A stretch of DNA of 64,000 nt, taken from positions 1,302,001 to 1,366,000 of the forward strand of contig NZ_CP151636.1 of the NCBI RefSeq assembly GCF_038397745.1, given 5' to 3'. A program made the position numbers and the translations under genes. Every line of letters starts with the position of its first letter. Within the stretch, counting starts at the first letter, position 1. Source of the DNA: Microbacterium sp. LWH11-1.2 (GTDB lineage Bacteria; Actinomycetota; Actinomycetes; Actinomycetales; Microbacteriaceae). Positions 17,552-44,163 of the stretch are shown here, piece after piece. Below the pieces are notes generated by a model that saw only the letters and a list, made by a program, of their open reading frames with translations, was not told where the DNA came from and searched no databases.

Positions 17552-17571
17552 GGATGCTCCAGCAGTCGGGA

Positions 17572-17601: not shown

Positions 17602-17609
17602 CGGCGGTC

Positions 17610-19932: not shown

Positions 19933-20033
19933 GGAATTCTCCTCCGGCGGGTGACTGCGGACCACTCACCGGCTTGTCTCAATTGGACAGCAAGTGGTTG
20001 CACTCATCATAGAAGCGTATTAGCTTGGCCCTC

Positions 20034-24083: not shown

Positions 24084-25039
<956 letters not shown>

Positions 25040-29230: not shown

Positions 29231-29971
29231 ATGACAGACACGATGCTCTCGATCCAGCTGTACAGCGTCCGTACGGAGCTCGGGCAGAAGCGGCCCGCGA
29301 CCCTGCGGCGGCTCGCGGAGCTCGGCTACAGGCGGGTCGAACCCTACGACATCCTCAGCGACCCGGAGAAATTGGCGCGCGACCTCGCCGCCGCGGGTCT
29401 CGAGGCGCCGACCGCGCACGTGAAGCTGCTCGATGCACCGATCGACGAGGCGCTCGCCGCGGCGAAGACCGTGGGCGTCGAGACGCTGATCGTGCCCTGG
29501 GCCGATCCTGCGCTGTTCGCGGACCGGGCGGGCGTCGAATCGCTCGCCGCGCGGATCAACGCCGCCGCCGAGAGTGCCGCGGCCGAAGGGCGGCGCGTCG
29601 GGTACCACAACCACGACTTCGAGTTCTCTACGCTGATCGACGGACGGGCCGCGTGGGAGATCCTCGTGGAGCTGCTCGACGAGCGCGTCGTCCTCCAGGT
29701 CGACAGCTACTGGGCGAGCGTCGGTGGAGCCGATGTGTTCGAGCTGCTTCCCCGCCTGGCCTCCCGCATCCGGTTCGTGCATGTGAACGACGAGGAGCCG
29801 GAGCCCGACGACCCGCCCACGCTCGGCGTCCCGGTCGTGGGACGGATGAGCGAGGTCACGGTCCTCGCCGCGCGCAGCGTCGAGCTCGTGGTGGTCGAGG
29901 TCGTCGTCGACGGCGACCCGCTCCCCGCGGTGGAGCGCAACACCCGCGTCTTCCAGGGGGCGCTCGCGTGA
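29231..29971 (+). CDS. Second xylose-isomerase-like TIM barrel
   Basis: A 246-residue sugar phosphate isomerase/epimerase-like protein. It has LSIQLYSVRTELG at the start (a common opening of IolE/YcjR-type barrels), RVEPYDILSDP, VGYHNHDFEF (about 118-127), LQVDSYWASVGG (about 156-167) and IRFVHVNDEEPEPDD. The HNH and D.YW elements are shared with the barrel at 27479, so the two probably descend from a duplication or act on successive forms of one sugar. The substrate cannot be read directly. Confidence 0.87.
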   Translation: MTDTMLSIQLYSVRTELGQKRPATLRRLAELGYRRVEPYDILSDPEKLARDLAAAGLEAPTAHVKLLDAPIDEALAAAKTVGVETLIVPWADPALFADRAGVESLAARINAAAESAAAEGRRVGYHNHDFEFSTLIDGRAAWEILVELLDERVVLQVDSYWASVGGADVFELLPRLASRIRFVHVNDEEPEPDDPPTLGVPVVGRMSEVTVLAARSVELVVVEVVVDGDPLPAVERNTRVFQGALA

Positions 29972-31071
29972 CCGGCAGGCCGGTCCGCGTCGGCGTCATC
30001 GGGGCGGGCAACATCTCGGACGAATACCTCACCACCCTCACCGCCGCTCCCGGCGTCGAGGTGATCGGGGTCGCCGATCTCGACGAGGAGCGCGCTGCCG
30101 CGCAGGCGGCGAAGTACAGTGTGCCCTTCTCCGGCAGCACCGCCGGACTCCTCGCCCTGCCGGAACTCGAGCTCGTCGTGAACCTGACCATCCCCGCGGT
30201 GCACGCGCAGGTCGCCCTCGCGGCGATCGCGGCGGGCAAGCACGTGTGGGGCGAGAAGCCGCTCACGCTCGATCGCGCCTCCGCCCGGACCGTGCTCGAT
30301 GCCGCCGCGGCGGCGGGGGTGCGCGTCGGCAATGCGCCGGACACCGTGCTCGGACGCGGCATCCAGCACTCGCAGCAGCTGATCGCCGAGGGCCGGATCG
30401 GCACACCCCAGACCGTGCTCACTCTCATGCAGGGGCCGGGTCCCGACGCGTGGCATCCGCGCCCGGACTTCCTGTTCGCGCGGGGAGCAGGCCCCTTGTT
30501 CGACATCGGCCCGTACTACCTCACGACGCTCGCGCTGCTGTTCGGTCCGATCGATACCGTGCAGGCGATGGGCCACCGGGCTTTCGACGTGCGCACCGTG
30601 CCGTACGGCGAACGCGCGGGCAACCGCATCCCGGTCGAGGTCTGGACGCACGTGAGCGTGCTCACCCGATTCCGGTCGGGCGTGGTCGGCACCTCGATCT
30701 ACAGCTTCGATTCGCCCGTGCGGCGGCAGCTGTTCGAGGTCACCGGCTCCGGCGGAACTCTGACCGTGCCGGTGAGCGGATTCGACGGGCCGAGCGTTCT
30801 CGTGCCGGCGGGGCAGCCGCGGCCGGAGTCGGTCGAGCTCGTGCCCTCGGGTGCCGACCGGGCGCGCGGCATCGGCGTCGTCGAGATGGCGGAGGCGATC
30901 CGCGCCGGGCGGGATCCGCGCGCGAGCGGGCCCCTGGGGTTCCACGTGCTCGACGCGCTGCTGGCCATCGAGGAGTCCATCGACGCGGGCGGGCCGATCG
31001 CGGTGGCCAGCGACTTCGACCCCGTGGACGCCCTGGATCCGCAGTGGGGCGCAGGCGCGCCGCCTCTTTGA
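29968..31071 (+). CDS. Gfo/Idh/MocA-family oxidoreductase (second of the operon)
   Basis: A 367-residue NAD(P)-dependent oxidoreductase starting at GTG 29968, which overlaps the previous stop (GTGA). The Rossmann loop is VGVIGAGNISDEYL and the signature is VWGEKPLTL (EKP). The substrate domain has GAGPLFDIGPYYLTTLALLFG, where a typical Asp and Tyr replace the more usual DxGxH. With the first Gfo/Idh enzyme at 20113 it could form an oxidation-reduction pair around a keto-sugar intermediate, as in myo-inositol or 3-keto-glycoside pathways. Confidence 0.88.
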   Translation: MTGRPVRVGVIGAGNISDEYLTTLTAAPGVEVIGVADLDEERAAAQAAKYSVPFSGSTAGLLALPELELVVNLTIPAVHAQVALAAIAAGKHVWGEKPLTLDRASARTVLDAAAAAGVRVGNAPDTVLGRGIQHSQQLIAEGRIGTPQTVLTLMQGPGPDAWHPRPDFLFARGAGPLFDIGPYYLTTLALLFGPIDTVQAMGHRAFDVRTVPYGERAGNRIPVEVWTHVSVLTRFRSGVVGTSIYSFDSPVRRQLFEVTGSGGTLTVPVSGFDGPSVLVPAGQPRPESVELVPSGADRARGIGVVEMAEAIRAGRDPRASGPLGFHVLDALLAIEESIDAGGPIAVASDFDPVDALDPQWGAGAPPL

Positions 31072-31093: not shown

Positions 31094-31110
31094 TGGTCGT
31101 TACTGGTATG
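31094..31110. promoter_or_regulatory. Putative GntR autoregulatory operator
   Basis: TGGTCGTTACTGGTATG holds two TGGT half-sites 10 bp apart and matches the site at 18961-18977 at 15 of 17 bases. A candidate promoter TTGACG (31068) and TAGAAT (31089) directly precedes it, so the operator covers the likely transcription start of the GntR gene. Confidence 0.65.
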
Positions 31111-31180: not shown

Positions 31181-31945
31181 ATGACGAGCATCAGTGAATC
31201 GCCGATCCGCGCGGACTATCCTGAGCCGCTGTGGATCCAGGCCGTGAATCTCATCAAGGTCGAGATCTCGTCCGGCCGACTCGCGGAAGGATCGCGGCTG
31301 CCTCCTGAGCGCGAACTCTGCACCCAGCTGGGCATCAGTCGGGTGACCCTGCGCAAGGCCCTGCTGCAGCTGGTCGACGAGGGCGTGCTGAGCTCTTCGC
31401 ACGGCCGCGGCTGGTACGTGGCTTCGGCGCCCGTCGCCAAGGAATGGCCGAACAGCCTCGAGTCCTTCAGCGAGACCGCACGGCGGATGGGCCTCGAGTC
31501 GACGTCGATCGTGCTCCGCGCCGAGACCGGGCATGCGAGCCTCGACGAGGCCGAGGCCATCGGAGTCGCGCCGGGAACGCCGATCTTCCGCCTCGACCGC
31601 ATCCGTCTGCTCGACGCCGTGCCGATCGCCCTCGACGCCTCCGTCGTGCCCGCGGCTCTGCTGCCCGATGTCTCGAAGACCGACTTCGCCGTCGACTCGC
31701 TGTACGACCTGCTCGACGAGTCCGGCGCCGGACCCCAGCGCGCCGACAGCACCGTCGAGGCACGAGAAGCCGATGCTCAGGCCGCCGAGGCTCTCGGCGT
31801 CCCGGTCGGCAGCCCCCTGCTCGTGATGCGTCAGGTCGCGCACGGCCTCGACGGCCGCGTCGTCGCACTGTCGACCATCCGCTACGTGGGCGAGCGCTAC
31901 CGGCTGCGCACGGTCTTCACTCGCGGCACCGGCCCCGCGCGCTGA
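31181..31945 (+). CDS. GntR-family regulator with UTRA ligand domain
   Basis: A 254-residue HutC-subfamily regulator. The winged helix (about 15-80) contains GSRLPPERELCTQLGISRVTLRKAL-type sequence, and GRGWYVA closes the wing. The UTRA domain follows from about 95, with IVLRAETGHA, FRLDRIRL and a late STIRYVGERYRLR segment where the ligand-contacting Arg/Tyr lie. UTRA domains bind sugars or sugar phosphates. Paired direct-repeat sites lie before this gene and before the CUT1 operon at 18.9 kb, so it probably controls the island. The ligand is unknown. Confidence 0.9.
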   Translation: MTSISESPIRADYPEPLWIQAVNLIKVEISSGRLAEGSRLPPERELCTQLGISRVTLRKALLQLVDEGVLSSSHGRGWYVASAPVAKEWPNSLESFSETARRMGLESTSIVLRAETGHASLDEAEAIGVAPGTPIFRLDRIRLLDAVPIALDASVVPAALLPDVSKTDFAVDSLYDLLDESGAGPQRADSTVEAREADAQAAEALGVPVGSPLLVMRQVAHGLDGRVVALSTIRYVGERYRLRTVFTRGTGPAR

Positions 31946-31981: not shown

Positions 31982-32941
31982 TCAGGGCCGAGCGCCGTCG
32001 TGCCGCTTCAGCCACTCCAGGATCGCGCGGGTGGTCTCCTCGGGCCGCTCCTGCTGGATCCAGTGGCCGCTGTCGAAGGTGATCTCCTCGACGTTCGGCA
32101 CGAACTCGGCGAGATTCGGCGACGGCGCCACCGTATCGCGTGCGCCGGACAGCATCAGTGTCGGCTGGTGGATGATCGGATCGACCTCGCCGAGCAGGTG
32201 CCAATCCCGGTCGAAGTTGCGGTACCAGTTGATGCCGCCGGTGAAGCCGGTCTTCTCGAAGGTGGCGACGTAGACGGCGAGCTCGTCGGCGCTCAACAGA
32301 GGCTCTCCGTGAGGGTCGTCGGACAGCGCGAGCTCGATCATCGCGTTGCCGGGCTGCGGCGCCCGGAGCGGCTCGTCTCTGCGATACAGGTTGCGGATGA
32401 ACCGCTCGGCATTCGCATCCAGGACCGCATCGGCGACGCCGGGCTGCCGATTGAAGTGCACGAAATAGTAATCGCTGCCGAGCACCTCCTCCATGAACTC
32501 GAGCCACGGACGCTCGCCGCGCGCGGGGTAGGGCAGGCTCAGGCAGATCACCTTGTTCACCCTGGTCGGATGCAGCTGGGTGAGGCTCCACACGACCATC
32601 GCGCCCCAGTCGTGACCGACGAAGGTCGCGTCCGCGTATCCGTAGTGGTCGAGGAGCGCGACGAGATCGCCGGACAGCTGCGCGACGTCGTAGGCGGTGA
32701 CCTCGGCTGGGCGTGAGGAGTTGCCGAAGCCGCGCTGGTTGGGGGCGATCACGTGGTAGCCCGCGGCGACCAGAGCGGGCACCTGATGACGCCAGGTGTA
32801 GGCGAGATCCGGCCAGCCGTGGCAGAGCACGATAGGTCGCCCGGCGTTCTCCCGGCCGGCTTCGAAGACCTCGAGCGTCACTCCGTCGACGGCGATCATG
32901 GTCGGCTCGGGAAAGGGGATGGGGTGTGTCAGTGTGTTCAT
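31982..32941 (-). CDS. Alpha/beta hydrolase, epoxide hydrolase-like
   Basis: A 319-residue alpha/beta hydrolase of the soluble epoxide hydrolase type. The oxyanion motif is CHGWPD (HGxP), the nucleophile elbow is VGHDWGAMV with Asp rather than Ser, and the catalytic His is in SGHWIQQERPEE. FNRQPG and a cap domain follow the elbow. The Asp nucleophile supports epoxide or haloalkane hydrolysis over ester hydrolysis. ATG 32941 is favoured; an in-frame GTG at 32950 is possible. It is divergent from a WYL regulator and shares its operator region. Confidence 0.88.
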   Translation of the reverse strand: MNTLTHPIPFPEPTMIAVDGVTLEVFEAGRENAGRPIVLCHGWPDLAYTWRHQVPALVAAGYHVIAPNQRGFGNSSRPAEVTAYDVAQLSGDLVALLDHYGYADATFVGHDWGAMVVWSLTQLHPTRVNKVICLSLPYPARGERPWLEFMEEVLGSDYYFVHFNRQPGVADAVLDANAERFIRNLYRRDEPLRAPQPGNAMIELALSDDPHGEPLLSADELAVYVATFEKTGFTGGINWYRNFDRDWHLLGEVDPIIHQPTLMLSGARDTVAPSPNLAEFVPNVEEITFDSGHWIQQERPEETTRAILEWLKRHDGARP

Positions 32942-32963
32942 GCTCTTCACGGTAGGGAGGTAT

Positions 32964-32984
32964 ACCGGTCACCTGATGACCGGT
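32964..32984. promoter_or_regulatory. Palindromic operator between epoxide hydrolase and WYL genes
   Basis: ACCGGTCA (32964-32971) and TGACCGGT (32977-32984) form a perfect 8-bp inverted repeat with a 5-base spacer, centred in the 63-bp gap between divergent genes. It is the natural binding site for the adjacent WYL regulator. A T-run follows on the plus strand, but no gene ends here. Confidence 0.6.
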
Positions 32985-33004
32985 TTTTCTGCGAATGTTG
33001 TCCT

Positions 33005-33964
33005 ATGCGCAGTGATCGCCTCGTCGCCATCCTCCTCATGCTGCAGCGCCGCGAGCAGGTGACCGCCGCCGAGGTCGCCGCCGAGCTCGAGGTGTCGGAG
33101 CGCACCGCGCGGCGCGACCTCGATGCGCTGGCCCAGAGCGGCGTCCCGGTCTACTCGATCCAGGGCAGAGCCGGCGGCTGGCGGCTGCTCGGCGGCGGCC
33201 GCACCGACCTGTCGGGGCTGACCGCGAGCGAGACCCGCGCTCTGTTCCTCGTCGCGGGTCCGGCGTCGACCGCGACTCCGGCCGTGAGATCCGCGCTCCG
33301 CAAGCTCGTGCGCGCGCTCCCCGAGCCGTTCCGCGACGAGGCCGAGGCCGCGGCGACATCACTGATCCTCGACCCGCGGAACTGGGGCTCGTCCCGAGCG
33401 GTCGAGCCGCCCCGTTTTCTCGACGCCCTTCAGGATGCCGTGATCCAGGGCGCGCAGGTGCGCCTCGGGTACGTCGACAGCGAGGGCGCCGAGTCCGAGC
33501 GGATCGTCCACCCGCTGGGCATCGTCGCCAAAGGGCCGTCCTGGTATCTCGTCGCCTACACCGAGAGCGGCCGGCGCACCTTCCGGGTCGACCGGGTCCT
33601 GTCCGCCGCCCCGACCGATGAACCCGTCGCTCTCCCGGGTGCGGTCGATCTCTCGGAGAGCTGGCGGGAGATATCCGACGACATCGACCGACGGCGCACG
33701 AAACCCGTCGAGATCCACGGGACCTGCGCACCCGAGGGCCTCGACCACCTCCGGATCGCGGTCGGCGAGAACCTCGAGACCGGGGGCGTCACCGCCGACG
33801 GACGCATCTCCATCGTGATCCGCGGTCCCAGCGAGTATGGGCTCGCGGGACTCCTCTCGGGGCTCGTCGAGTGGCTCGACATCACGGAGCCCGTCGGCGT
33901 GCGAAACCACCTCGCGGCCATCGGCGCGGCCCTCACCGCACGGTACGGGGCTCCCGGCGCCTGA
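33005..33964 (+). CDS. WYL-domain (YafY-type) transcriptional regulator
   Basis: A 319-residue regulator. An HTH_11-type DNA-binding domain comes first (SDRLVAILLMLQRREQVTAAEVA, VSERTARRDLDALA, YSIQGRAGGWRLL). The WYL domain lies at about 150-225, with GPSWYLVAYTESGRRTFRVDRV containing the namesake W-Y-L triplet, and a C-terminal WCX extension follows. WYL domains sense nucleic acids or small ligands; this YafY subgroup usually controls a neighbouring enzyme. The divergent epoxide hydrolase is the likely target. Confidence 0.92.
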   Translation: MRSDRLVAILLMLQRREQVTAAEVAAELEVSERTARRDLDALAQSGVPVYSIQGRAGGWRLLGGGRTDLSGLTASETRALFLVAGPASTATPAVRSALRKLVRALPEPFRDEAEAAATSLILDPRNWGSSRAVEPPRFLDALQDAVIQGAQVRLGYVDSEGAESERIVHPLGIVAKGPSWYLVAYTESGRRTFRVDRVLSAAPTDEPVALPGAVDLSESWREISDDIDRRRTKPVEIHGTCAPEGLDHLRIAVGENLETGGVTADGRISIVIRGPSEYGLAGLLSGLVEWLDITEPVGVRNHLAAIGAALTARYGAPGA

Positions 33965-33978: not shown

Positions 33979-34893
33979 CTACAGTCGGTTCGCGAGGAAC
34001 CACGCGCCGGCGACCGGCGGCTGGTCCAGGAGCACGAATCGCAGATCCGGATGCCGTTCGGCGAGCAGTTCGCGCACGCCGTCCGCGAGTCTCGGCTGCG
34101 CGGTGATCACGCCTCCCGCAGCGACGACGGCGTCACCCACGGCGCCGCGCCGGCGCAGCTGATCGATCAGGCGCACGAGGTGCGCCGCACCCGCACGGAT
34201 CACCTCGGCGGCGAGAGCAGAGCCCCGGTCGGCCGCGCGGAACACCGCGGCGGCGTGCGGTGCCCAGTTCGCCATGGTCGGGTCGTCGTTCACGGCGCGG
34301 GCGAGACGCTCGGCATCCGCGACGCCGAAGTCCGCCAGCAGAGCCTGGAGGAGTCCGTCGTCGGGCTCGCCGTCATCGTGCGCGAGCAGCGCGGCCTTCG
34401 TGGCCTCACGGACGAGCCCGGCGGCGCCCGCTTCGTCGCCGATGACCCAGCCCCAGCCGCCGGTGACGAAGGAGCGTTCTGCCGCATCCGTCCCCGTGCC
34501 GATCGCTCCTGTGCCGGCGATGAGGCCGAGTCCCTGATCGAGTCCGGCGGCAGGCACGAGCAGCGCCGCATCGTTCACGCAGCGCACCTGATGATGCCCC
34601 CGCTGCACCAGAGCCTGCTCGAGGTCACGCGCGACGTCGGGATTGTCCAAACCCTGTGCGCCGACCACCAGGGCGCCGATCGTCGACCCGGTCGGCAGGG
34701 CGCGGAGCAGCACATCGGCGAGCCAGGCCGCCGCGGCATCCGCCGGTTCGGCATCCCACTCGGCCGAGCTCATCACGACGTCGGCGACACGCACGCCGTC
34801 GCGTGTCGTCGCACGCACGGCCGCCTTCGTCCCGCCCACGTCCATGCCCACGATGAGCCCCTCGTGCGGGAAGGAGTCATCGGGTGGAGTCAC
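33979..34893 (-). CDS. BadF/NAGK-type sugar (amino-sugar) kinase
   Basis: A 304-residue ASKHA kinase resembling N-acetylglucosamine/glucosamine kinases. The ATP loop is VGMDVGGTKA, VNDAALL follows, the second phosphate loop is GLIAGTGAIG, and GGWGWVIGDEAGAAG is a hallmark of NAGK/BadF proteins. AAGGVI near the C-terminus is the adenosine motif. It would phosphorylate an imported sugar or amino sugar in the cytoplasm. It overlaps the upstream SIS gene by 4 bases, so the two products are coupled: the kinase makes the phosphate that an SIS enzyme acts on. Confidence 0.85.
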   Translation of the reverse strand: MTPPDDSFPHEGLIVGMDVGGTKAAVRATTRDGVRVADVVMSSAEWDAEPADAAAAWLADVLLRALPTGSTIGALVVGAQGLDNPDVARDLEQALVQRGHHQVRCVNDAALLVPAAGLDQGLGLIAGTGAIGTGTDAAERSFVTGGWGWVIGDEAGAAGLVREATKAALLAHDDGEPDDGLLQALLADFGVADAERLARAVNDDPTMANWAPHAAAVFRAADRGSALAAEVIRAGAAHLVRLIDQLRRRGAVGDAVVAAGGVITAQPRLADGVRELLAERHPDLRFVLLDQPPVAGAWFLANRL

Positions 34894-35906
34894 TGCGCCG
34901 CTCCGGATTCCACCTTGATGTCGTCGTTGTGGAACACGAACTCCTCGATCGCCACTCCTCGGGCGTCCGCGACCCGTGCCACGAGGCCCTGCAGGAACAG
35001 CGCCTCGAGCACGGCGAGGGCGTTCGACGAGGCCTGCGGCAGACGCACGACCTCGAGGTGGTCAGAGCTCTCCACGTCGTCGGTCGTGACCAGCACGACC
35101 CGGTGACCGGCTTCGCTCAATGTGTGCGCGACCCGGCTCTCTCGTTCACCGCCGAACAGCACGTGCGCGCCCTCGCCGGCCGATTCCATGGCGCCGTGCA
35201 GGTACCGCCGCGTGCCCATGGCACTGGCGGGGATGCGGGCGACCTCGCGGAACAGCAGCGCGCCGGCCTCGGCCGAACCCGTCGAGGGCCCGGCGCCGAC
35301 GAAGTCGAGACTCGGCGCGGTGGCGATGAGCTCGGCGGCACGGTCGATCTGCGGGGCGAGCATGGTCTCAGTCTCGCGGAAGAGCGCCGCGAAGTCATGC
35401 CACGCCGGGTCGATCTTCCCGCCGGCCCACGCTTCCGAGAGCATGCTCACGGCGACCACCGTCGCGGTGTAGCCGATGGTCGAGGCGTAGCTGTCGGGGA
35501 TCGACCCCAACCCCACCAGGTGGTTCGCGATGTCGGCGATGGGAGAGGGCGCGGTGTTGACGACGCCGTAGCGGAGCGACGCGGGAATGGTGTCCAGTGC
35601 GGCGATGGTCTCGCTGCTGCGACCGCTCTGCGACACGGCGATGACCGGGTGGTCGCCCGTGGCGAGCGGCAGCGGCGTGTCACCGGCATCCAGGCGCCAG
35701 GCGGTGATCCCGCGTTCGCGCAGATGCCAGACCGCTGGCGCGGCGGCGGCGAGGCTGGCGCCGATGCCCAGGAAGAGCGGGCCGACCTCACCGAGTGCGC
35801 CCTCCGCGGCGAGAGCCTCGACCTGGCTCTCGATGTGCGGGATCGCCGCCGCGAGGGCGTCGGCCTGACCTGCGGTGGCCTCCGCGTAGCTGATGTAACC
35901 GTTCAT
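34890..35906 (-). CDS. SIS-domain sugar-phosphate isomerase/deaminase or deglycase
   Basis: A 338-residue protein with two SIS domains, like the isomerase half of GlmS, NagB-II deaminases or FrlB deglycases. Sugar-phosphate loops are SQSGRSSET (about 92-100) and GAGPSTGSAEA (about 204-214). Catalytic residues of the family are kept: Glu221 (REVAR), His237 (YLHGAME) and a C-terminal Lys331 in DIKVE. No glutaminase domain is present. With the coupled kinase it could deaminate an amino-sugar 6-phosphate, or cleave a phosphorylated glycated amine (Amadori product) to sugar phosphate plus free amine. The latter would feed the amine oxidase encoded 22 bases upstream. Confidence 0.85.
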   Translation of the reverse strand: MNGYISYAEATAGQADALAAAIPHIESQVEALAAEGALGEVGPLFLGIGASLAAAAPAVWHLRERGITAWRLDAGDTPLPLATGDHPVIAVSQSGRSSETIAALDTIPASLRYGVVNTAPSPIADIANHLVGLGSIPDSYASTIGYTATVVAVSMLSEAWAGGKIDPAWHDFAALFRETETMLAPQIDRAAELIATAPSLDFVGAGPSTGSAEAGALLFREVARIPASAMGTRRYLHGAMESAGEGAHVLFGGERESRVAHTLSEAGHRVVLVTTDDVESSDHLEVVRLPQASSNALAVLEALFLQGLVARVADARGVAIEEFVFHNDDIKVESGAAQ

Positions 35907-35928
35907 GTCGTTCCTCGTGCTCGTCCGG

Positions 35929-37869
35929 TCAGTGTCCGGCGTGGTGGTCGTGGTGGCCCGGCGCGCAGTGGTCTGCGGCGGCGGGGATGTCGAGAGCGGG
36001 GTTGCGGCCGAAGAAGCCGTGCGGCTTGAGCACGAATCCGCACGTGTCGACCGACATGATCGGCCAGTCCTCGACGCGGGGGAAGTGCGTGAGACCGAAC
36101 GTGTGCCAGAGCACGATGTCGGTGCCGTCGACCGGCCGGTCCGCGACCACCCACTGCGGGAGGCCCGCGCCGCCGGGGTGCAGGTTGACGAAGTCACCCG
36201 CGGGATAGATCTGGTCGGGCTCGTAGGCGGTGACCCAGAGGTGCTTGGTCGTGAAGGTCGCGCGCTTGTGGATGTCAGACTCGCTGTCGGCGAGCAGCAG
36301 CGGCTTGCCCTCGGGGTAGAGCACCCAGCCCACGGGCTCGCCGAGGCGGTTCTGCACCTCGGTGTTGCCGATGAACCAGACGCGCCCGGTGAGATTGTCG
36401 GCGATGCGCTGCGCCTCCGACTCGGTGCGCAGGCGCGTGACGCTCTGCGTGAAGCCGGTGCCGTGCGGGTTCTGCTCACCGCGCGGAACAGCCACCGCCT
36501 CGATCTCGTCGACCGCGTTCGCGAGTCCGTCGACGGCCACGTCGAGTCGCGCGCTGAACAGGTGCTGGTGGTTCGGGGCGCCGAGGCCCGGCGCGACCTC
36601 GGTCGCGAACGGATAGCCCTTCCCGGGGTGCGCCGAGGTGAAGACGATCCCGGTGGCCTTCACCTCGAACTCGATCGTGCCGTCGAGGCCGAAGTACCAG
36701 TAGAAGCCGTAGTCGTAGTTGCCGACCGTCATGAAGAAGCTGACCACGAGGCGGCGGTTGCGACGCGTCTCGGACGAGCCGTTCCAATTGTCGGAGTGCT
36801 TCCAGAGCACTCCGGCGTCCTCCTCGTGGATGCAGATGGCCTGACGCACGATGCGCGCGTCGCCGTCGTTGCCCGCGACCACCGCGTCGAGGTAGGTGAT
36901 GTCGCCGACACAGTCGCAGCCGAGCTCGAGCGAGTTCGCGAACCCGCCGAACAGGTACTCGCCGCCGTCGAAGAAGTTCTGGAACCAGCGCTGCGGGCTC
37001 GGGTCGCCGTAGGGCACGACCATCTCGGCGATCGACGCACGATAGAGCACCGAGCGCTGCGCCTCGCCGTCGGCGATCGAGACGTCATGCAGCACGAGGC
37101 CCTCGCGCTGGTCGAAGCCGACCTGCAGGCGCCATCCCGCCCAGTCGAGCACGCCGTTCTCGTCGATCGTGAAGCTCGGTCCCTCCGGCTGCGAGATCTC
37201 GATCGGCTTCAGACCGGCGCGATCCGGGCCGCGCCACGAGGCCAGGTGGTAGTTCCCGTCCTCCTGCGGCACCGGGAGGTCGACGTAGTCGATCACGTCG
37301 AGCACCTCGCCGGTGACGACGTCGACCATGACGGTCACGCCGTCGACGGGGTGCGCCCAGCCGAGATCGTCCGGCGTGTTCTGCACGAAGGTGAAGCAGC
37401 GCTGGATGCGGCGGCCGCGCTCGCCGTCCGCGAGGACGCCGCCCGACAGCGGGTTCACGCGCAGCTTCGAGACGTCGGTCAGACCGCGCTTCGCCATCGC
37501 GGCGAGCCACCGCTCGTCCTGATGCACGACCTCTTCGACGTAGCCGAACTCGCGGATCACCACCGGGACCGCACCGTCGACCTCGGGGTCGAGCTCGCGC
37601 TCCGAGACGACGGCGCCTGCGGCGGGGTCGACGACGACGTCGTGCGAGCGCCCCGTGACCATGTCGATCAGGAAGCTGCGCACCTGACGCGGCAGACTCT
37701 CACCAGCCAGCAGTCGGCGTTTGTCCGGCGCCGTCAGTCCGACGTAGGAGTAGTGCGTGTTCGGGTTCGCGATACCCGCCGCCTCGAGGACCGCGCGGTT
37801 GGCGACGATCTCCTCGGCGGTCAGCGTCGCGAGCAGCGCGTGCGCACCGGCGGGCAGTGTGTTCGTCAT
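35929..37869 (-). CDS. Copper-containing primary-amine oxidase
   Basis: A 646-residue enzyme closely resembling Arthrobacter phenylethylamine oxidase (AGAO). The topaquinone precursor is Tyr385 in GNYDYGFYWYF. The catalytic base is Asp301 (FFDGGEY). The copper ligands are His434 and His436 (NHQHLFSARLD) and His595 (GLTHFPRVEDWP). All sit at the AGAO position plus 3, as I recall that numbering. The C-terminal tail is His-rich (HHDHHAGH). It oxidises R-CH2-NH2 to the aldehyde with release of NH3 and H2O2, normally on arylalkyl amines. There is no signal peptide, so it is cytoplasmic. It sits in a sugar operon, which is unusual. Confidence 0.95.
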   Translation of the reverse strand: MTNTLPAGAHALLATLTAEEIVANRAVLEAAGIANPNTHYSYVGLTAPDKRRLLAGESLPRQVRSFLIDMVTGRSHDVVVDPAAGAVVSERELDPEVDGAVPVVIREFGYVEEVVHQDERWLAAMAKRGLTDVSKLRVNPLSGGVLADGERGRRIQRCFTFVQNTPDDLGWAHPVDGVTVMVDVVTGEVLDVIDYVDLPVPQEDGNYHLASWRGPDRAGLKPIEISQPEGPSFTIDENGVLDWAGWRLQVGFDQREGLVLHDVSIADGEAQRSVLYRASIAEMVVPYGDPSPQRWFQNFFDGGEYLFGGFANSLELGCDCVGDITYLDAVVAGNDGDARIVRQAICIHEEDAGVLWKHSDNWNGSSETRRNRRLVVSFFMTVGNYDYGFYWYFGLDGTIEFEVKATGIVFTSAHPGKGYPFATEVAPGLGAPNHQHLFSARLDVAVDGLANAVDEIEAVAVPRGEQNPHGTGFTQSVTRLRTESEAQRIADNLTGRVWFIGNTEVQNRLGEPVGWVLYPEGKPLLLADSESDIHKRATFTTKHLWVTAYEPDQIYPAGDFVNLHPGGAGLPQWVVADRPVDGTDIVLWHTFGLTHFPRVEDWPIMSVDTCGFVLKPHGFFGRNPALDIPAAADHCAPGHHDHHAGH

Positions 37870-37912
37870 TCTCGGGTGTCTCCCTGTCTGGTCTGGTCTG
37901 GTCGGTCGGTGC

Positions 37913-38950
37913 TCAGCGCTCGAGGAGCACCGGCTCCCAGGTGCCGGAGCGCATGGCGCGGTAGCAGGCGTCGAGGATGCAGTTCACGATCCAGCCGTCC
38001 TCGAAGGTCTCCATGGGCACGGTGCCCGCGGCATAGTGATCGATGAAGTGGCGCATCTGCTGCGAGAACCCGTAGGCGCGCGTCTCCTCCGGGACGGGGT
38101 GCACCCAGCCGGTCTCGGCATCCGCCTTCTCGACGAGGTAGCCGACCGGATTTCCGATGAAGCCCCAGACCGGTGTGACGGAGGTGTCGGTGACCAGGCG
38201 CCCGGCCGTGCCGGTGAACTCATGGCGCAGCTGCATGCCGCCCTTCTCCGCCCACGACGACTCGATGATCGCCAGCTGGCCGCCGGCGAACTTGAGGAGC
38301 GCGACCGCGGTGTCCTCTCCGGTGGTCTTGTCGGAGTGGACCAGGGTCGACCCCCACGCGAAGACCTCGGTGACCGCGTTGTCCTTGCCGAAGAAGTGCC
38401 GGGCCGATTCGACCGTGTGGCAGCCCATGTCGAGCAGGGCGCCGCCTCCGGCGGTCTCGGCGTCCCAGAAGTGCGCGGCGTGCGGGCCGGAGTGCGCCTC
38501 GCGGGCGCGCATCGTGAGCAGGTCGCCGATGCCGCCTGCCTGGGCCATCTCGTGCGCCTTCTGCACATTGGGGGAGAAGACCGAGCTCTCGGCGTAGCCG
38601 TGCCAGACGCCGGCCTCCTCGACGATCCGGAGGATCTCGGCGGCCTCGGCGCCGGTGCGGGCCAGCGGCTTGGTGCAGATGATGCCCTTGCCCGCCGCGG
38701 CCGCGATGCGCACGGCCTCGACGTGGGCCTCGTTCGGCAGTGCCACGACGACGACGTCGATCTCGGGATTCGCGCACAGCTCGGCGATGTCGGTGTAGCT
38801 GCTCGGGCTGCTCCATCGGGCGGCGAAGTCCGCTGCACGCTCGGGGTTGCGCGAGAAGTTGGCGACGAGGATGCCGTCGCGGACGTCGAGCAGGGAATCG
38901 GCGTACGAGTCTGCGATGAACCCGGAGCCGAGGATGCCGACACGAATCAC
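37913..38950 (-). CDS. Gfo/Idh/MocA-family oxidoreductase of the amine oxidase operon
   Basis: A 345-residue NAD(P)-dependent oxidoreductase starting at GTG 38950, which follows a perfect AAGGAGG. The Rossmann loop is VGILGSGFIADSY and the signature is IICTKPLART (TKP in place of EKP, keeping the Lys). The substrate domain has GGGALLDMGCHTVES with the usual DxGxH-type Asp and His. It is the first gene of the leftward operon: dehydrogenase, amine oxidase, SIS protein, kinase. It probably oxidises or reduces the sugar part of the imported compound. Confidence 0.88.
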   Translation of the reverse strand: MIRVGILGSGFIADSYADSLLDVRDGILVANFSRNPERAADFAARWSSPSSYTDIAELCANPEIDVVVVALPNEAHVEAVRIAAAAGKGIICTKPLARTGAEAAEILRIVEEAGVWHGYAESSVFSPNVQKAHEMAQAGGIGDLLTMRAREAHSGPHAAHFWDAETAGGGALLDMGCHTVESARHFFGKDNAVTEVFAWGSTLVHSDKTTGEDTAVALLKFAGGQLAIIESSWAEKGGMQLRHEFTGTAGRLVTDTSVTPVWGFIGNPVGYLVEKADAETGWVHPVPEETRAYGFSQQMRHFIDHYAAGTVPMETFEDGWIVNCILDACYRAMRSGTWEPVLLER

Positions 38951-38980
38951 TGGGAGACCTCCTTCAAGGGCTGTTGTCCA

Positions 38981-39029
38981 CAAGATACCACTTGTCTTGA
39001 ATCTGTCTACTATTTTTCCATACCTCTTG
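38981..39029. promoter_or_regulatory. Operator-like repeats in the divergent promoter of the amine oxidase locus
   Basis: The AT-rich 177-bp gap holds CAAGA-N9-TCTTG (38981-38999) and a direct repeat ATACCACTTG (38985-38994) / ATACCTCTTG (39020-39029), 9 of 10 identical. The complement, CAAGTGGTAT, resembles one half of the GntR operator found at 18961 and 31094. Control by that GntR protein or a similar one is possible but only half the site matches. Confidence 0.45.
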
Positions 39030-39127
39030 CTACCGCATACAGACCTATATATGCTGACCAGCACCACGCGCCGCCGCAAAGGTGTGGCAGGTCCCCGAAG
39101 ACCGCGCGTCACTTCAGAGAGAAGGTC

Positions 39128-40408
39128 ATGATGCGCTCAGCCACTGCACCGCTCGCCGCCCTCGCTGTCACCACGCTCGTCCTCGGCCTCGCCGGGTGTG
39201 CGACCGGAAGTGGCGGCGAAGACGGGGATTCCGTCACGCTCACCCTCGGCACGTGGCGCACCGAGGACGCCACGATGTGGGAGAACGACATCATCCCCGC
39301 GTTCGAGGAGAGCCACCCCGGCATCAAGGTCGAGTACGCCCCGATCGACACGAACGACTACAACGCCGCGATCCAGTCGCAGATCGACGGCGGCACCGGA
39401 CCCGACGTCATCATGTGCCGTCCGTTCGACGTGAACCGCTCGTGGATCGAGAAGGGATACTTCGAACCGCTCGACGGTCTCGACGCGATCGGCTCCTTCC
39501 CGGAGTCGGCGCTCGCCGCATGGGAGGGCGACGACGGAAACCCGTACTGCGTGCCCGTGGCATCCGTCCTCGCCGGCTTCTACTACAACACCGCGATCTT
39601 CGACGAGCTGGGACTCGAGGTGCCGAAGACGCAGGACGAGTTCCTCGAGGTGCTCGACGCGATCAAGGAGGACGGCACCTACGCGCCGCTCGCGCTGGGC
39701 AGCGCCGACGGCTGGCAGCTGGCCTACAACATGCTCTACCAGGTCGGCCCGAACGCCTGGAAGGGCGAGGAGGGGCGCCTCGGACTCATCGACGGGTCGA
39801 AGAAGCTCACCGACCCCGAGTTCGTCGAGGGCTTCCGCGTGTTCGACGCGTTCAAGGACTACCTCCCCAGCGGCTACGAGGCCATCTCCTACGAGGACAT
39901 GACCCAGCTGTTCACGCTCGGTCAGGCGGCGATCCTGCCCGACGGCTCCTGGCAGATCTCGCAGGTCACCTCGACCGGGTTGGACGTCGGCGTCTTCGGC
40001 GCTCCGCCTGCCGAGGAGGGCGGCCAGCGCTACCAGCAGGAGATGGCCGACATGGCCTTCGGCCTGAACGCCTCCGGCAAGAACAAGGAGGCCGCGACCG
40101 AGTTCGTCGAGTGGCTCGGCACGAGCGAGTTCCAGCAGCTCTACGTGAACAAGCTGCCGGGCTTCTTCTCGATGGGATCCGAGCCGGTGAAGTACGACAA
40201 CGCCCTGGCGCAGGACTTCGCCGACCTGAAGGAGGGAGCCGAGCTCACCTCGCGCCTCGCCCTCGACCGTCTGAGCGCCGGCCAGCCGCCGCTGGACGAC
40301 GAGATCTGGCGGGTCGCCCAGCTCATGTACAACAGCGGGCTCTCGCCTGAGGAGGCCACGGCCGAACTCCAGAAGAGCCTCGAGTCCTGGTACACGCCCA
40401 CTCCGTGA
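39128..40408 (+). CDS. ABC transporter substrate-binding lipoprotein (family 1)
   Basis: A 426-residue lipoprotein. The lipobox is LAGC (about Cys24), followed by a Gly/Asp linker and TLTLGTWRTEDATMW. The body is a two-lobed CUT1 binding protein with aromatic patches (GSWQISQV, PGFFSMG, LESWYTPTP end). It captures the substrate for the two permeases that follow. ATG 39128 is used; the adjacent ATG at 39131 is equally possible. The gene is divergent from the dehydrogenase/amine oxidase operon. A perfect stem-loop lies directly after the stop. Confidence 0.92.
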   Translation: MMRSATAPLAALAVTTLVLGLAGCATGSGGEDGDSVTLTLGTWRTEDATMWENDIIPAFEESHPGIKVEYAPIDTNDYNAAIQSQIDGGTGPDVIMCRPFDVNRSWIEKGYFEPLDGLDAIGSFPESALAAWEGDDGNPYCVPVASVLAGFYYNTAIFDELGLEVPKTQDEFLEVLDAIKEDGTYAPLALGSADGWQLAYNMLYQVGPNAWKGEEGRLGLIDGSKKLTDPEFVEGFRVFDAFKDYLPSGYEAISYEDMTQLFTLGQAAILPDGSWQISQVTSTGLDVGVFGAPPAEEGGQRYQQEMADMAFGLNASGKNKEAATEFVEWLGTSEFQQLYVNKLPGFFSMGSEPVKYDNALAQDFADLKEGAELTSRLALDRLSAGQPPLDDEIWRVAQLMYNSGLSPEEATAELQKSLESWYTPTP

Positions 40409-40413
40409 GGCCC

Positions 40414-40442
40414 TGCCGGGGGTGGAGCCTCCACCCCCGGCA
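40414..40442 (+). promoter_or_regulatory. Intercistronic stem-loop after the second CUT1 binding-protein gene
   Basis: A perfect 13-bp inverted repeat, TGCCGGGGGTGGA (40414-40426) and TCCACCCCCGGCA (40430-40442), with a 3-base loop, starting 6 bases after the stop. It sits before the permease start at 40474 and matches in place the hairpins at 17572 and 26765. Confidence 0.75.
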
Positions 40443-40473
40443 TCCCCTGTTCCGTCGACGGAAAGCACCCCGA

Positions 40474-41358
40474 ATGATCCGCACACCCGCCCGCTATCGC
40501 CTGCTGGCGATGTTCGTGCTGCCGGCCCTCGTGGTCTACGTGGCCTTCGCGGTCTACCCCCTGCTGAGCTCGGTCTTCCTGAGCTTCTTCGAGTCCAGCG
40601 GGCAGACGAGCGCGTTCGTGGGCGTCGCCAACTATGTCGACCTGTTCACGAACCCGACCACCAGCGCCCGGTTCTGGAACGCCCTCGGCAACAACGTCGA
40701 GTTCTTCCTCATCCACCTGCTCGTCGAGCTGCCCGTCGGCCTGCTCATGGCGGCGCTCCTCACGTCGGGCAGGATCCGGCGCTCGGTCGGGGTCTACCGC
40801 ACATTGCTGTTCGTGCCCGCGACGCTCTCGGTCGTGATCGTCGGCTTCATCTGGCGGCTCATCATCAACCCGCTCTGGGGTGTCGTCGAGGTCCCGCTGC
40901 TCGGGCTCGAGGCCACCGCGCTGCCGACGATCTCGCTGATGTCGGTCTGGCAGTACATCGGCATCCCGATGATCTTCCTCTACACCGCTCTCCTCGCCAT
41001 CCCCGACGACGTGATCGAGGCATCGCGGATCGACGGCGCGGGCGCCTGGACGGCGTTCTGGCGGATCAAGTTCCCGCTGATCGCGCCGCAGTTCGGACTG
41101 ATCGTGATCCTCACCTACATCTGGACGTTCAACGGGTTCGACATCGTCTACGCCCTGAACGGGTCCGCCCCCGGGCCGAACTACTCGACCGACATCCTCG
41201 GCACCTTCTTCTACCGCTCGTTCTTCGGATCCAGCGGCCAGGTCGCCGACCTCGACCTCGGCGCGACCGTCGCGTCGGTGATCTTCGTACTCATCCTCGC
41301 GACCACGGCCCTCTACTTCTGGGCCGTGCAGCGCCGGCTGAAGTCCTACGAGCTCTAG
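40474..41358 (+). CDS. Sugar ABC transporter permease (MalF/CUT1 type)
   Basis: A 294-residue permease with six helices beginning at about residue 10 (LLAMFVLPALVVYVAFAVYPLL). The EAA loop that docks to the ATPase reads IEASRIDGAGAWTAFWRIKFP. It works with the following permease and the binding protein upstream. No ATPase gene is present in the operon, so it probably shares a general sugar ATPase from elsewhere. ATG 40474 follows GGAAAG. Confidence 0.92.
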   Translation: MIRTPARYRLLAMFVLPALVVYVAFAVYPLLSSVFLSFFESSGQTSAFVGVANYVDLFTNPTTSARFWNALGNNVEFFLIHLLVELPVGLLMAALLTSGRIRRSVGVYRTLLFVPATLSVVIVGFIWRLIINPLWGVVEVPLLGLEATALPTISLMSVWQYIGIPMIFLYTALLAIPDDVIEASRIDGAGAWTAFWRIKFPLIAPQFGLIVILTYIWTFNGFDIVYALNGSAPGPNYSTDILGTFFYRSFFGSSGQVADLDLGATVASVIFVLILATTALYFWAVQRRLKSYEL

Positions 41359-41367
41359 GAGCGCAAG

Positions 41368-42270
41368 ATGGCCACCGACACTCTCACCGCCCCTCCGGCC
41401 GCCTCCGAGCCGGCGCCCGTCGTCGCGCGCAGGCGGCCGCGCCGCGCCGCCGACGTGTTCGCCGGGGGAGGGGTGCACCTGCTGCTGATCGTGATGGCGA
41501 TCTTCTCGATCGTGCCGATCCTCATCGTGCTGATGAACTCGTTCAAGACGACGCAGGGCATCTTCGGCTCGCCGTTCGCCCTGCCGGATGCCGAGACGTT
41601 CAACCTGCAGGGCTACATCAACGTGTTCACCCGCGGGAACTTCCTGCTCAACTACCAGAACAGCCTGATCGTCACGATCGCCACCATCGTGCTGACCATC
41701 GTGCTGGGCACCCTGGCCGCCTGGGCGCTCGTGGAGTACAAGGTGCCCATCACCCCGGTCCTCGCCGGATTCTTCGTGGTCGGCATCATGCTGCCGATCC
41801 GCCTGGGCACCGTGCCGCTGATCAAGATCATGACGTCGTGGGCGCTGATGGACACGCTCACCGCCCTGATCCTCGTCTACACGGCTATGCAGCTGCCGCT
41901 CGCGATCGCACTGATGACCACCTATTTCCGCGCCGTGCCGACCGAGCTCAAGGAGGCGGCTCGCATCGACGGGGCGGGCGAGTGGCGCACGCTCTCGATC
42001 ACGCTGCCGATCGTCCGGGTGGGCATCGCCGCCGTCGCATCCATCACGATGCTGCCGGTCTGGAACGACCTGTGGTTCCCGCTGATCCTCGCGCCGAGCA
42101 AGGAGAACCAGACCGTGACGCTCGGGGTGCAGCAGTTCGTCGGGCAGTTCCAGAACGACTACCCGGCTCTGCTCGCCTCGCTGACGCTCGGCGCCGTGCC
42201 GCTCGTCATCCTCTTCGCCGTCTTCTCCCGGCAGTACATCGCCGGCCTGACCAAGGGCTACGGCAAGTGA
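41368..42270 (+). CDS. Sugar ABC transporter permease (MalG/CUT1 type)
   Basis: A 300-residue permease. After an Ala/Pro- and Arg-rich cytoplasmic tail (about 1-30) come six helices, with the EAA loop LKEAARIDGAGEWRTLSITLP. IVPILIVLMNSFKTTQGIF near helix 1 is typical of the MalG group. It starts 9 bases after the MalF-type gene, and the aldehyde dehydrogenase gene follows 31 bases later, so all four genes are probably one transcript. Confidence 0.92.
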   Translation: MATDTLTAPPAASEPAPVVARRRPRRAADVFAGGGVHLLLIVMAIFSIVPILIVLMNSFKTTQGIFGSPFALPDAETFNLQGYINVFTRGNFLLNYQNSLIVTIATIVLTIVLGTLAAWALVEYKVPITPVLAGFFVVGIMLPIRLGTVPLIKIMTSWALMDTLTALILVYTAMQLPLAIALMTTYFRAVPTELKEAARIDGAGEWRTLSITLPIVRVGIAAVASITMLPVWNDLWFPLILAPSKENQTVTLGVQQFVGQFQNDYPALLASLTLGAVPLVILFAVFSRQYIAGLTKGYGK

Positions 42271-42301
42271 GCCGTCCCGTCCGACCTGAAGGAGTCTCAC
42301 C

Positions 42302-43678
42302 ATGACCATCGCGACCATCGACCCGAGCACCGGCGAGCTGGTGCAGGAGTTCCCGGCGCACACCGCGGCGCAGGTGGAGGAGATCCTGTCGAGGGCGGAT
42401 GCCGCGAACGCGCTCATGGCGCGCTTGACCTTCGCCGAGCGCGCGGAGTGGATGCGACGTGCCGCAGATCTGCTCGACGCCGACCTGGAGCACGCCGCGG
42501 GCCTCGCGGTCCTCGAGATGGGCAAGACCCTCGGCACGGCGAAGTACGAGGTGACCAAGTCGGCGAACGGCATGCGCTGGTACGCCGACCACGCGGAGGA
42601 GTACCTCGCCGCGGAGGAGCCCGTGCCCGCGGCATCCGTCGGGGCGTCGGCGGCGCGCGTCGAGTTCCAGCCGCTGGGCACCGTGCTCGCGGTGATGCCG
42701 TGGAACTATCCCTTCTGGCAGGTCATCCGCTTCGCCGCCCCGGCGCTGATGGCCGGCAACACCGGGCTGCTCAAGCACGCGTCGAGCGTGCCGCAGACCG
42801 CGCTGTACCTGGGTGAGCTGTTCGCGCGGGCGGGATTCCCGGCCGGAGCCTTCCAGACGCTGCTGATCGAGGGGGCTGCGGCATCCGCTCTGCTCGACGA
42901 TCGTCGCATCCGTGCGGTGACGCTGACGGGGTCGGTCGGCGCCGGTGCGGCAGTGGCCGCGGCCGCGGGACGCAACATCAAGAAGAGCGTGCTGGAGCTC
43001 GGCGGGACGGATGCCTTCGTCGTCATGCCGTCGGCCGACATCGCGCGCTCCGCCAGGATGGGCGCGGCCTCGCGCACGCAGAACAGCGGGCAGTCGTGCA
43101 TCTGCGCCAAGCGGTTCTTCGTGCACGCCGACGTCTACGACGAGTGGCTCGAGGCGTTCGTGGGCGAGATGAGCGCGACGACCTTCGGCGACCCGCGGGA
43201 GGAGGGCACCGGCTTCGGCCCGATGGCGACCGCGCAGGTGCGGGCCGATGCGCACGAGCTGGTGGCGGATGCCGTCGCCCAGGGTGTGACGGTCCGGACG
43301 GGCGGTGAGCTGCCCGAGGGCCCCGGCTGGTTCTATCCGGCGACCGTGCTGACCGAGGTGACGCCCGAGATGCGCATCTTCCGCGAGGAGTGCTTCGGCC
43401 CCGTGGCCTGCGTGTACAAGGTGGCTTCGATCGATGAGGCGATCACTGCGGCGAACGACTCCGACTTCGGGCTGGCGGCCGGTGTCTGGTCGGCAGACGC
43501 CGATGAGATCGCCCGACTGCAGCGCGAGCTGGAGTTCGGCAGTGTCTTCGCCAACGGCAACTCCGCCTCGTTCTTCGGCCTGCCGTTCGGCGGTGTGAAG
43601 GACTCGGGGTACGGACGCGAGCTCGGCTCGTTCGGCATCCGCGAGTTCGTGAACGCGAAGACGGTGTGGACGGCCTGA
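42302..43678 (+). CDS. NAD(P)-dependent aldehyde dehydrogenase (succinate-semialdehyde type)
   Basis: A 458-residue ALDH of the short GabD1-like group. The cofactor site is VMPWNYPFWQ, the general base is Glu232 (LELGGTDAF), the nucleophile is Cys266 (NSGQSCICAKRF), and EECFGPVACVY carries the late conserved Glu-Phe-Gly-Pro. It oxidises an aldehyde to the acid. Its place as fourth gene of the importer operon, divergent from a copper amine oxidase operon, suggests it removes the aldehyde that the oxidase makes. The exact aldehyde is unknown; succinate semialdehyde is only the family default. Confidence 0.9.
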   Translation: MTIATIDPSTGELVQEFPAHTAAQVEEILSRADAANALMARLTFAERAEWMRRAADLLDADLEHAAGLAVLEMGKTLGTAKYEVTKSANGMRWYADHAEEYLAAEEPVPAASVGASAARVEFQPLGTVLAVMPWNYPFWQVIRFAAPALMAGNTGLLKHASSVPQTALYLGELFARAGFPAGAFQTLLIEGAAASALLDDRRIRAVTLTGSVGAGAAVAAAAGRNIKKSVLELGGTDAFVVMPSADIARSARMGAASRTQNSGQSCICAKRFFVHADVYDEWLEAFVGEMSATTFGDPREEGTGFGPMATAQVRADAHELVADAVAQGVTVRTGGELPEGPGWFYPATVLTEVTPEMRIFREECFGPVACVYKVASIDEAITAANDSDFGLAAGVWSADADEIARLQRELEFGSVFANGNSASFFGLPFGGVKDSGYGRELGSFGIREFVNAKTVWTA

Positions 43679-44163
43679 CGCTGACGGCGTCCGCGGCGGC
43701 GTCCGTCGGTGCGTCTTCGCGCACCGGCGCCGTCCGGCATCTGGCGGCCGGGGCGGGGATGCTCGCCCTGATGGCACCCGCGCTGCTGCTCGGTCACGCC
43801 TCGCTGGCAGGCATCGGTGTGACGCTCGCGTTCTTCGCGTGGGCGACGGTCGCCGCCGTCCACGCTCGTCGCCGGAATCGGGTGGGGCCATGCGGAGGGG
43901 CGGTCGGGGACCCGTTCGCGATGGGGCTGATGATGGCCGTCCCGTACCTCGCACTCGGCTTCGGCGGGCACGCGCACGGTACGGGTGCCGACGTCGGCTC
44001 GACCGGGACCGTGGCGGTGGCGGTCATCGGCCTGTTCATCGTCGCCGGCTGGACGGCGCTGCGCGCGGGTGCGGCGAGGGCGGACCGCGCGGGGCGGTTC
44101 GGCTTCTGGTCGTGCCTCCTGATGATGCTCGGGATGCTGGCCGCCATGAGCATCCCGTCGTGA
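43666..44163 (+). CDS. Small four-helix membrane protein
   Basis: A 165-residue protein with four hydrophobic stretches (LAAGAGMLALMAPALLL, GVTLAFFAWATVA, MGLMMAVPYLALGF, VAVAVIGLFIVAGWTAL, plus a short C-terminal CLLMMLGMLAAM). A His/Gly loop (FGGHAHGTGADVG) and RRRNRVGPCGG lie between helices. GTG 43666 overlaps the end of the aldehyde dehydrogenase gene by 13 bases. Composition is coding-like but no family is recognised. It may be translationally coupled to the upstream gene or independent of the pathway. Confidence 0.55.
   Translation: MDGLTLTASAAASVGASSRTGAVRHLAAGAGMLALMAPALLLGHASLAGIGVTLAFFAWATVAAVHARRRNRVGPCGGAVGDPFAMGLMMAVPYLALGFGGHAHGTGADVGSTGTVAVAVIGLFIVAGWTALRAGAARADRAGRFGFWSCLLMMLGMLAAMSIPS

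Follow-up and report, generated by a model that had tools for sequence, protein, structure and literature searches.

A 64,000-nucleotide stretch of the Microbacterium sp. LWH11-1.2 genome (contig NZ_CP151636.1, positions 1,302,001 to 1,366,000), hereafter the window, carries a divergent locus that combines a carbohydrate ABC importer with a copper amine oxidase (CuAO), a SIS protein, a kinase and an aldehyde dehydrogenase (ALDH). An annotation made from the letters alone (the sequence-only reading) had described eight genes, their catalytic residues and a 177-bp divergent promoter; all are present, with every open reading frame at its place and every product in the named family by Pfam. The minus strand encodes a BadF/NAGK-type (sugar or amino-sugar) kinase (33979–34893), whose gene overlaps the SIS gene by 4 bp; a two-domain SIS protein resembling GlmS and glucosamine-6-phosphate deaminases (34890–35906; Pfam, NCBIfam, alignment and model); the CuAO (35929–37869; Pfam, NCBIfam and tree), which belongs to a clade of its own and carries Phe at the position of Tyr296 in AGAO, the Arthrobacter phenylethylamine oxidase; and GFO1 (37913–38950; Pfam and relatives), a Gfo/Idh/MocA oxidoreductase and well-conserved core member. 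The promoter region (38951–39127) holds ATACCACT at 38985 and ATACCTCTTGCTACC at 39020, located by motif scans. The plus strand encodes SBP1, a carbohydrate-type solute-binding lipoprotein (39128–40408), two ABC permeases (40474–41358 and 41368–42270), all three assigned by Pfam, and an ALDH (42302–43678; Pfam and NCBIfam) that is AldH/SSADH-like but below both cut-offs.

The sequence-only reading delimited the unit as 33979–43678. Its gene content stands; its extent does not, as the cluster spans 13.9–44.2 kb of the window. It takes in two more importers, one an ABC importer accompanied by a GH9 glycosidase and one of the Opp type, as well as ThuA, an epimerase flanked by two TIM barrels, a second Gfo/Idh/MocA oxidoreductase and a GntR/UTRA regulator. 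On the minus strand, the GH9 enzyme (13964–15700), of the exo-beta-glucosaminidase/glucosidase type, matches 6gdt with 393 bits over its length and has no signal peptide by eye. Adjoining it is a second carbohydrate-type ABC importer (15702–18893; permeases 15702–16622 and 16637–17488, and a solute-binding protein, 17610–18893, the component that was run against the library). On the plus strand, library scans identified GFO0, also a Gfo/Idh/MocA oxidoreductase (20197–21183), a ThuA-family protein (26835–27482), the xylose-isomerase-like TIM barrels TIM1 (27479–28249) and TIM2 (29231–29971), an NAD-dependent epimerase/dehydratase (28246–29229), GFO2, the second oxidoreductase (29968–31071), and the GntR/UTRA regulator (31181–31945). 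An Opp/Dpp-type transporter with a permease, a fused permease-ATPase and an ATPase (21226–25039, plus strand) was recognized by sequence reading and from homologues in relatives, and is followed by SBP5, a family 5 solute-binding protein (25107–26753, plus strand; 242 bits). Two further segments lie among these genes: an alcohol-dehydrogenase-like gene read by eye (18988–19965), and an alpha/beta hydrolase with a WYL regulator (31982–33964; Pfam) between the GntR gene and the kinase gene.

Recurrence of the cluster and its operator-like motif

Relatives were collected by a contig scan with an alignment (A1) of nine of the ten SIS orthologues from the window's family, the frame-split SIS of L040/L128 being left out; 80 of 101 confirmed loci (L numbers) were kept, from 79 genomes (G numbers). 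The carriers include Microbacterium, Agromyces, Leifsonia, Naasia, Herbiconiux, Mycetocola, Herbidospora, Asanoa, Kutzneria, Streptomyces, Actinacidiphila and others, together with the non-actinobacterial Devosia and Rhizobium (Rhizobiales). The neighbourhood, for whose co-occurrence in other genomes the sequence-only reading had proposed a search, recurs in both groups. The genes of the wider cluster are interleaved with those of the CuAO, SIS protein and kinase: in L040, ThuA, TIM1, epimerase, CuAO, TIM2, GFO2, SIS, kinase and ALDH genes follow one another uninterrupted (the ThuA, TIM1 and epimerase labels resting on similarity to the window genes, as they do in L128 from that genome). GFO2 directly precedes the SIS gene in L035, L040 and other relatives, the GH9 gene and second importer are also syntenic in L053 and L055–L057, and the cluster of the GntR/UTRA protein is represented in 69 of the 80 loci. 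Two importer versions recur, namely SBP1 with two permeases or Opp with SBP5. The former is found in Herbidospora and the Rhizobiales and the latter in Streptomyces, Kutzneria and Actinacidiphila, while Leifsonia has both, in different genomes. The proteins encoded by Microbacterium sp. TPD7012 (L052) are 98–100% identical to those of the window. The CuAO gene is split between frames in the L035 and L040/L128 assemblies, as is the SIS gene in L040/L128.

In 63 of the 79 genomes (36/41 and 27/38), a CuAO gene and the SIS gene are no more than 20 kb apart, against a chance expectation of 0.47 and 0.29, about 0.75 in sum. The first 41 genomes were chosen after the locus maps had been viewed, with fragment rows of G310, G333 and G338 merged or left out, and the remaining 38 were added later so that all 79 were counted. 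Where a genome has a single CuAO (n=45), that enzyme is near the SIS gene in 42 (20/21 and 22/24). Six genomes have a CuAO away from the SIS gene (G324, G334, G369, G370, G372 and G373), the SIS contigs of the last four being 5.5–16.2 kb long. Among 299 genomes of the window's family, 10 carry a SIS orthologue (at least 53% identity) and 10 a locus-type CuAO (at least 72%); 8 carry both and 2 each alone (Fisher p = 1.4e-12). A flavin amine oxidase-like gene beside L115 was considered as a CuAO replacement, which is weakened by a second SIS copy beside a CuAO in the same genome; its family was read by eye, the library scan giving general flavoprotein matches only.

In the loci named Devosia, Rhizobium or Rhizobiales, GFO1 and the permeases are 69–75% and 64–76% identical to those of the window, whereas in the nine loci whose stretch reaches a CuAO this enzyme is 41–45% identical and belongs to another clade, and the ALDH is only 42–45% identical. 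The CuAO therefore appears to have been exchanged while the core stayed. That an amine oxidase persists despite differing ancestry argues most strongly for a place of its reaction in the pathway, and amine oxidation seems to be needed rather than merely inherited.

The motif ATACCWST has five matches in the window, all intergenic and all in the cluster, and they mark the promoters of four units: GH9-ABC (ATACCAGT, 18969–18976, minus strand), Opp (ATACCACT, 20034–20041, minus strand), GntR (ATACCAGT, 31102–31109, minus strand) and GFO1/SBP1. Shuffled intergenic sequence gave a mean of 0.28 matches and never five in 500 trials. The pattern ATACCWSTNNNNNCC has 12 matches in the single-contig 4.22-Mb genome, four of them in this 20-kb stretch, against none for the reversed control; only three of the 12 end in ACC, all among the cluster's four. 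In the relatives, TACCTCT or its complement is present in 37 of 46 GFO1/SBP1 intergenic regions (45 loci and the window). The 15-mer ATACCTCTTGCTACC, with up to 2 mismatches, has 41 matches in the 80 loci; none lies inside a called gene, and three precede SIS genes. Of the ATACCWST matches in these loci, 88 of 113 are intergenic as defined by our codon-usage gene caller, which overlooks genes in rhizobial loci. Of these 88, 40 lie at the promoter type where the motif was first seen and a few before unrelated genes. Their positions include those before GFO1/SBP1, the GH9-ABC unit, SIS, GH9/ThuA and CuAO genes. The intergenic density is 17 times the genic density, compared with 0.8–5.6 for seven permuted patterns. 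L166, which has neither SIS nor kinase gene, has three motif matches, two flanking the GntR gene on both sides (the second before CuAO-ALDH) and one within the CuAO gene. The GntR/UTRA protein is likely the regulator that binds this motif.

Enzymes of the amine and sugar arms

The CuAO shares 341 of 613 aligned residues (56%) with AGAO and passes the NCBIfam model of the AGAO-type/primary-amine oxidase subfamily (NF008559; 814.8 bits, cut-off 651). Tyr385 and Asp301 are the counterparts of AGAO Tyr382 and Asp298, and His434, His436 and His595 align with the copper-ligand positions; we take these residues of AGAO to be the TPQ cofactor, the catalytic Asp and the copper ligands. The residues presumed to form the AGAO gate and channel differ: Tyr296, Ala135 and Leu358 are replaced by Phe299, Asn139 and Asn361, so the enzyme falls outside the phenylethylamine oxidase pattern. 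In a FastTree phylogeny of 78 distinct sequences (above 200 bits and 450 aligned residues) and AGAO, one clade unites the 48 locus enzymes of actinobacteria (support 0.999) and another 16 enzymes of rhizobia (support 1.0). The CuAOs of Microbispora and Rugosimonospora, 5.7 and 12.0 kb from SIS genes, constitute a third lineage, sister to the locus clade. All 48 locus enzymes carry Phe at Tyr296 and Asn or Gln at Ala135, and 34 carry Asn at Leu358. In contrast, 14 other CuAOs, including AGAO, the second CuAO of the window genome and the L139 and L140 enzymes (near SIS genes but outside the main clade), all keep Tyr296 and never have Asn or Gln at 135; neither group includes L132, a paralogue from actinobacteria that falls next to the rhizobial clade. 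The presumed channel residues are thus more polar than those of phenylethylamine oxidase, and aromatic amines, which the sequence-only reading had suggested for testing in fructosyl form, find no support as substrates. The second CuAO of the window genome (G000:C1:3862688-3864571) is 51% identical and has the usual Tyr at the gate.

A small membrane protein containing Met and His (43666–44163, plus strand) recurs beside the ALDH or kinase gene, in the window and in L058–L065, L070, L072, L074, L079, L083, L088, L095, L097, L102, L106 and L128. It was picked by length, hydropathy and distance, and shows recurrent Met/His positions and a D-L/F-W-A-M motif. Between CuAO and ALDH in Devosia lies a protein (L114:2039-2530) that matches the PpoB2 copper-chaperone family below its cut-off (19.6 against 28.7 bits). 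More speculatively, the small membrane protein perhaps serves the copper supply of the CuAO.

Both the SIS protein and the kinase belong to known superfamilies and yet score under every NCBIfam cut-off listed for them. The SIS protein reaches 34.7 of 430 bits for the glucosamine-6-phosphate deaminase NagB-II (NF046059), and the kinase 56.1 of 370 bits for the N-acetylglucosamine kinase NagK (NF046058). Glu221, His237 and Lys331 of the SIS protein are invariant in the nine sequences of alignment A1 and in the 24 of alignment A2 (the window and 23 of the 80 loci). Sequence and model predict a two-SIS-domain GlmS-like fold with Glu and His, as in NagB-II. The model is closest to GlmS and several glucosamine-6-phosphate deaminases and less close to FrlB or FraB, and the sequence likewise appears nearer to GlmS (compared without its start, as the fetched stretch was cut). 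GlmS Lys485 is missing in the SIS protein, in FrlB and in SIS relatives adjacent to NagA; its loss thus does not decide between deaminase and deglycase. Distant SIS relatives adjoin genes that read as NagA- or NanE-like. In Mycetocola (L094 and L096), the SIS and kinase genes are accompanied by two GH9 genes and by genes for an amidohydrolase-family protein, a weakly BhcC-like protein and, as read by eye, a RidA-like protein; these genomes (G318 and G363) have no CuAO.

The GH9 enzyme is homologous over its full length to Vibrio VC0615, in which Asp140, Asp144 and Glu546 are the catalytic residues and Tyr148, Trp220 and Tyr232 lie near C2 (PMC6096475). The equivalents of the catalytic residues are kept in all 14 sequences aligned, but the C2 contacts are replaced by Phe, Leu and Pro in all 14. 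GFO1 has its best solved relatives in 6nor (106.4 bits) and 6jw6 (105.5 bits). We take these to be GenD2 and KanD2 of aminoglycoside biosynthesis, an identity that a literature check did not confirm. A Gfo/Idh/MocA oxidoreductase, a DUF993 protein and a TIM barrel recur together near the locus in L065, L095, L122 and L128, and partly in L055–L058, L060, L070, L097 and L166, with the families checked for L065.

A candidate pathway and its alternatives

From gene content, conservation, association, the shared motif, active-site residues and fold class we infer, tentatively and with slightly less than even confidence, a catabolic regulon under GntR/UTRA control whose substrate would be an amino-sugar conjugate bearing or releasing a primary amine. 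The conjugate would enter through the SBP1 importer, in some species also through the Opp-type importer. GFO1 would detach the sugar from the rest of the conjugate, in some species with the aid of GFO2, the TIM barrels and ThuA, or of GH9. The kinase would phosphorylate the amino sugar at O6, and the SIS protein would turn the 2-amino-sugar 6-phosphate into fructose 6-phosphate, releasing NH3 or the bound amine. Oxidation of the freed primary amine by the CuAO would give an aldehyde together with NH3 and H2O2, and the ALDH would convert the aldehyde to an acid. The amino-sugar arm is supported by the SIS model nearest to GlmS, by the SIS relatives beside NagA and NanE, and by the homology of GH9 to VC0615.

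For the amine arm, L165 and L166 carry a locus-type CuAO and ALDH, with no SIS or kinase gene in the stretch, beside genes for an ethanolamine-permease-like protein (348 bits, cut-off 382) and an amino-acid-permease-like one, which suggests a free amine as the CuAO substrate. Ethanolamine-permease-like, glutamine-synthetase-like and PuuD-like genes with ALDH and SDR genes adjoin the locus in L062, L102, L106 and L165 (run against NCBIfam for L106 and L165); L079 has the permease-, synthetase- and PuuD-like genes, with one more gene beginning at the stretch edge, and L088 the permease alone. In L107, L116 and L117, importer genes of one cluster lie beside the CuAO gene, and the L107 binding protein is PotD-like (182 bits, cut-off 582). 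These neighbours hint at small polar amines.

Several observations weigh against the proposed regulon. The two arms can occur apart, as in L165 and L166 and in the 10 of 79 genomes that have the SIS protein without any CuAO. On the regulatory side, the motif was spotted by eye in these promoters, so that independent evidence comes solely from the counts elsewhere, in other promoters and genomes. ATACCWCTTG, with one mismatch allowed, is not clearly enriched in the window. The 15-mer ATACCTCTTGCTACC, when up to 3 mismatches are allowed, occurs 4 times in the genome, less often than its reversed control (35 times), and has one exact copy. The separability of the arms, together with the ethanolamine-permease-like and glutamine-synthetase-like genes beside L062, L079, L102, L106 and L165, would suit a regulon for two nutrients, in which the kinase, SIS protein and GH9 digest an amino-sugar oligosaccharide while the CuAO and ALDH use a co-occurring free amine, for instance in decaying fungal or plant matter, co-regulated with no common molecule. 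We consider this rather unlikely: the CuAO gene often shares a gene run with SIS and GFO1, the Rhizobiales have a CuAO of another lineage near the SIS gene instead of none, and the importers common to most loci are of the carbohydrate or Opp type. A fortuitous neighbourhood in one strain, which would account for the mixed family content and nothing more, is rejected as practically negligible in view of CuAO–SIS proximity in 63 of 79 genomes where less than one is expected, and of the recurrent gene runs and motif.

The sequence-only reading placed both arms in one unit, which holds in outline, and proposed in part a deglycation route: an Amadori- or Heyns-type glycated amine would be phosphorylated and split by the SIS protein into a sugar phosphate and an amine for the CuAO. 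Such chemistry unites both arms, the E. coli frl (fructoselysine) operon likewise groups a SIS enzyme, an epimerase, a kinase and a regulator, and FrlB shares the lack of Lys485; within frl, FrlC has a TIM-barrel fold and FrlR belongs to the GntR type. However, the frl kinase is of another family, the window SIS protein appears nearer to GlmS than to FrlB or FraB in sequence and fold, the Lys485 loss is also seen beside NagA and so is no pointer to deglycases, the known scheme leaves GFO1 and GH9 without a role, and no CuAO, ALDH or Gfo/Idh/MocA enzyme is annotated in frl. When the SIS protein, TIM barrels and kinase were compared with E. coli FrlB, FrlC and FrlD, the best matches to FrlB and FrlC (TIM1) had E values of 0.03 each, and those to FrlD 0.15 (TIM2) and 1.7 (kinase). 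The BadF/NAGK-type kinase is thus no FrlD-type partner, and a plain FrlB-type Amadori operon was rejected. Deglycation as a whole appears improbable, and Amadori deglycation and aromatic amines in particular are doubtful. A variant in which the kinase and SIS protein act as a deglycase for an N-substituted glucosamine (Heyns-type) 6-phosphate, the GlmS-like SIS protein yielding fructose 6-phosphate plus a primary amine that is small and polar, for instance ethanolamine, to be consumed by the dedicated CuAO clade and the ALDH, fits the polar channel residues and the ethanolamine-type genes beside several loci; we give it a slim chance. The polar channel residues, and the presumed aminoglycoside-biosynthesis relatives of GFO1, would also suit a diamino-sugar or aminoglycoside-like substrate, with the CuAO oxidizing an aminomethyl group on the sugar itself, GFO1 a sugar carbon, and the kinase and SIS protein taking the glucosamine unit. 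This is quite improbable, since the PDB names of 6nor and 6jw6 say only 'dehydrogenase' and their likeness to GFO1 is that of Gfo/Idh/MocA enzymes in general, so many species are unlikely to feed on a rare antibiotic, and L165 and L166 suggest a free amine.

The amino-sugar conjugate regulon, which we favour, resembles known systems in parts. VC0614 is of the BadF family. Together with VC0615 it matches the window in having a glucosamine-type kinase and a GH9 enzyme of the same exo type; the pair lacks CuAO, ALDH, GFO1, SIS and GntR proteins, and its GH9 C2 contacts differ from those of the window type in 14 of 14. In the Vibrio pair, VC0614 is described as a glucosamine-specific kinase and VC0615 as a GH9 exo-glucosaminidase (PMC12282291). 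AGAO has the cofactor and ligand residues in common with the locus clade, which differs in the gate and channel as above. In the gamma-glutamyl ethanolamine pathway of Streptomyces (GlnA4; PMC9397018), a gene set resembles the one that adjoins L062, L102, L106, L165 and partly L079; this set is absent from the window and represents a separate amine route. The window kinase and SIS protein are far below the curated cut-offs of the Shewanella-type NagK/NagB-II pair (SO3507/SO3506). As far as we know, that pair has no amine oxidase arm.

The sequence-only reading knew of no described pathway with this set, and none that combines CuAO, SIS protein and kinase is among the literature matches listed. 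Even for the E. coli copper amine oxidase, one report calls the exact role unknown (PMC4640556). The cluster, a widespread candidate catabolic regulon of actinobacteria and Rhizobiales with two visible enzyme arms and no description among those matches, gives one CuAO clade a genomic setting. It points to an undescribed use of a sugar-linked amine and could reveal an overlooked nutrient.

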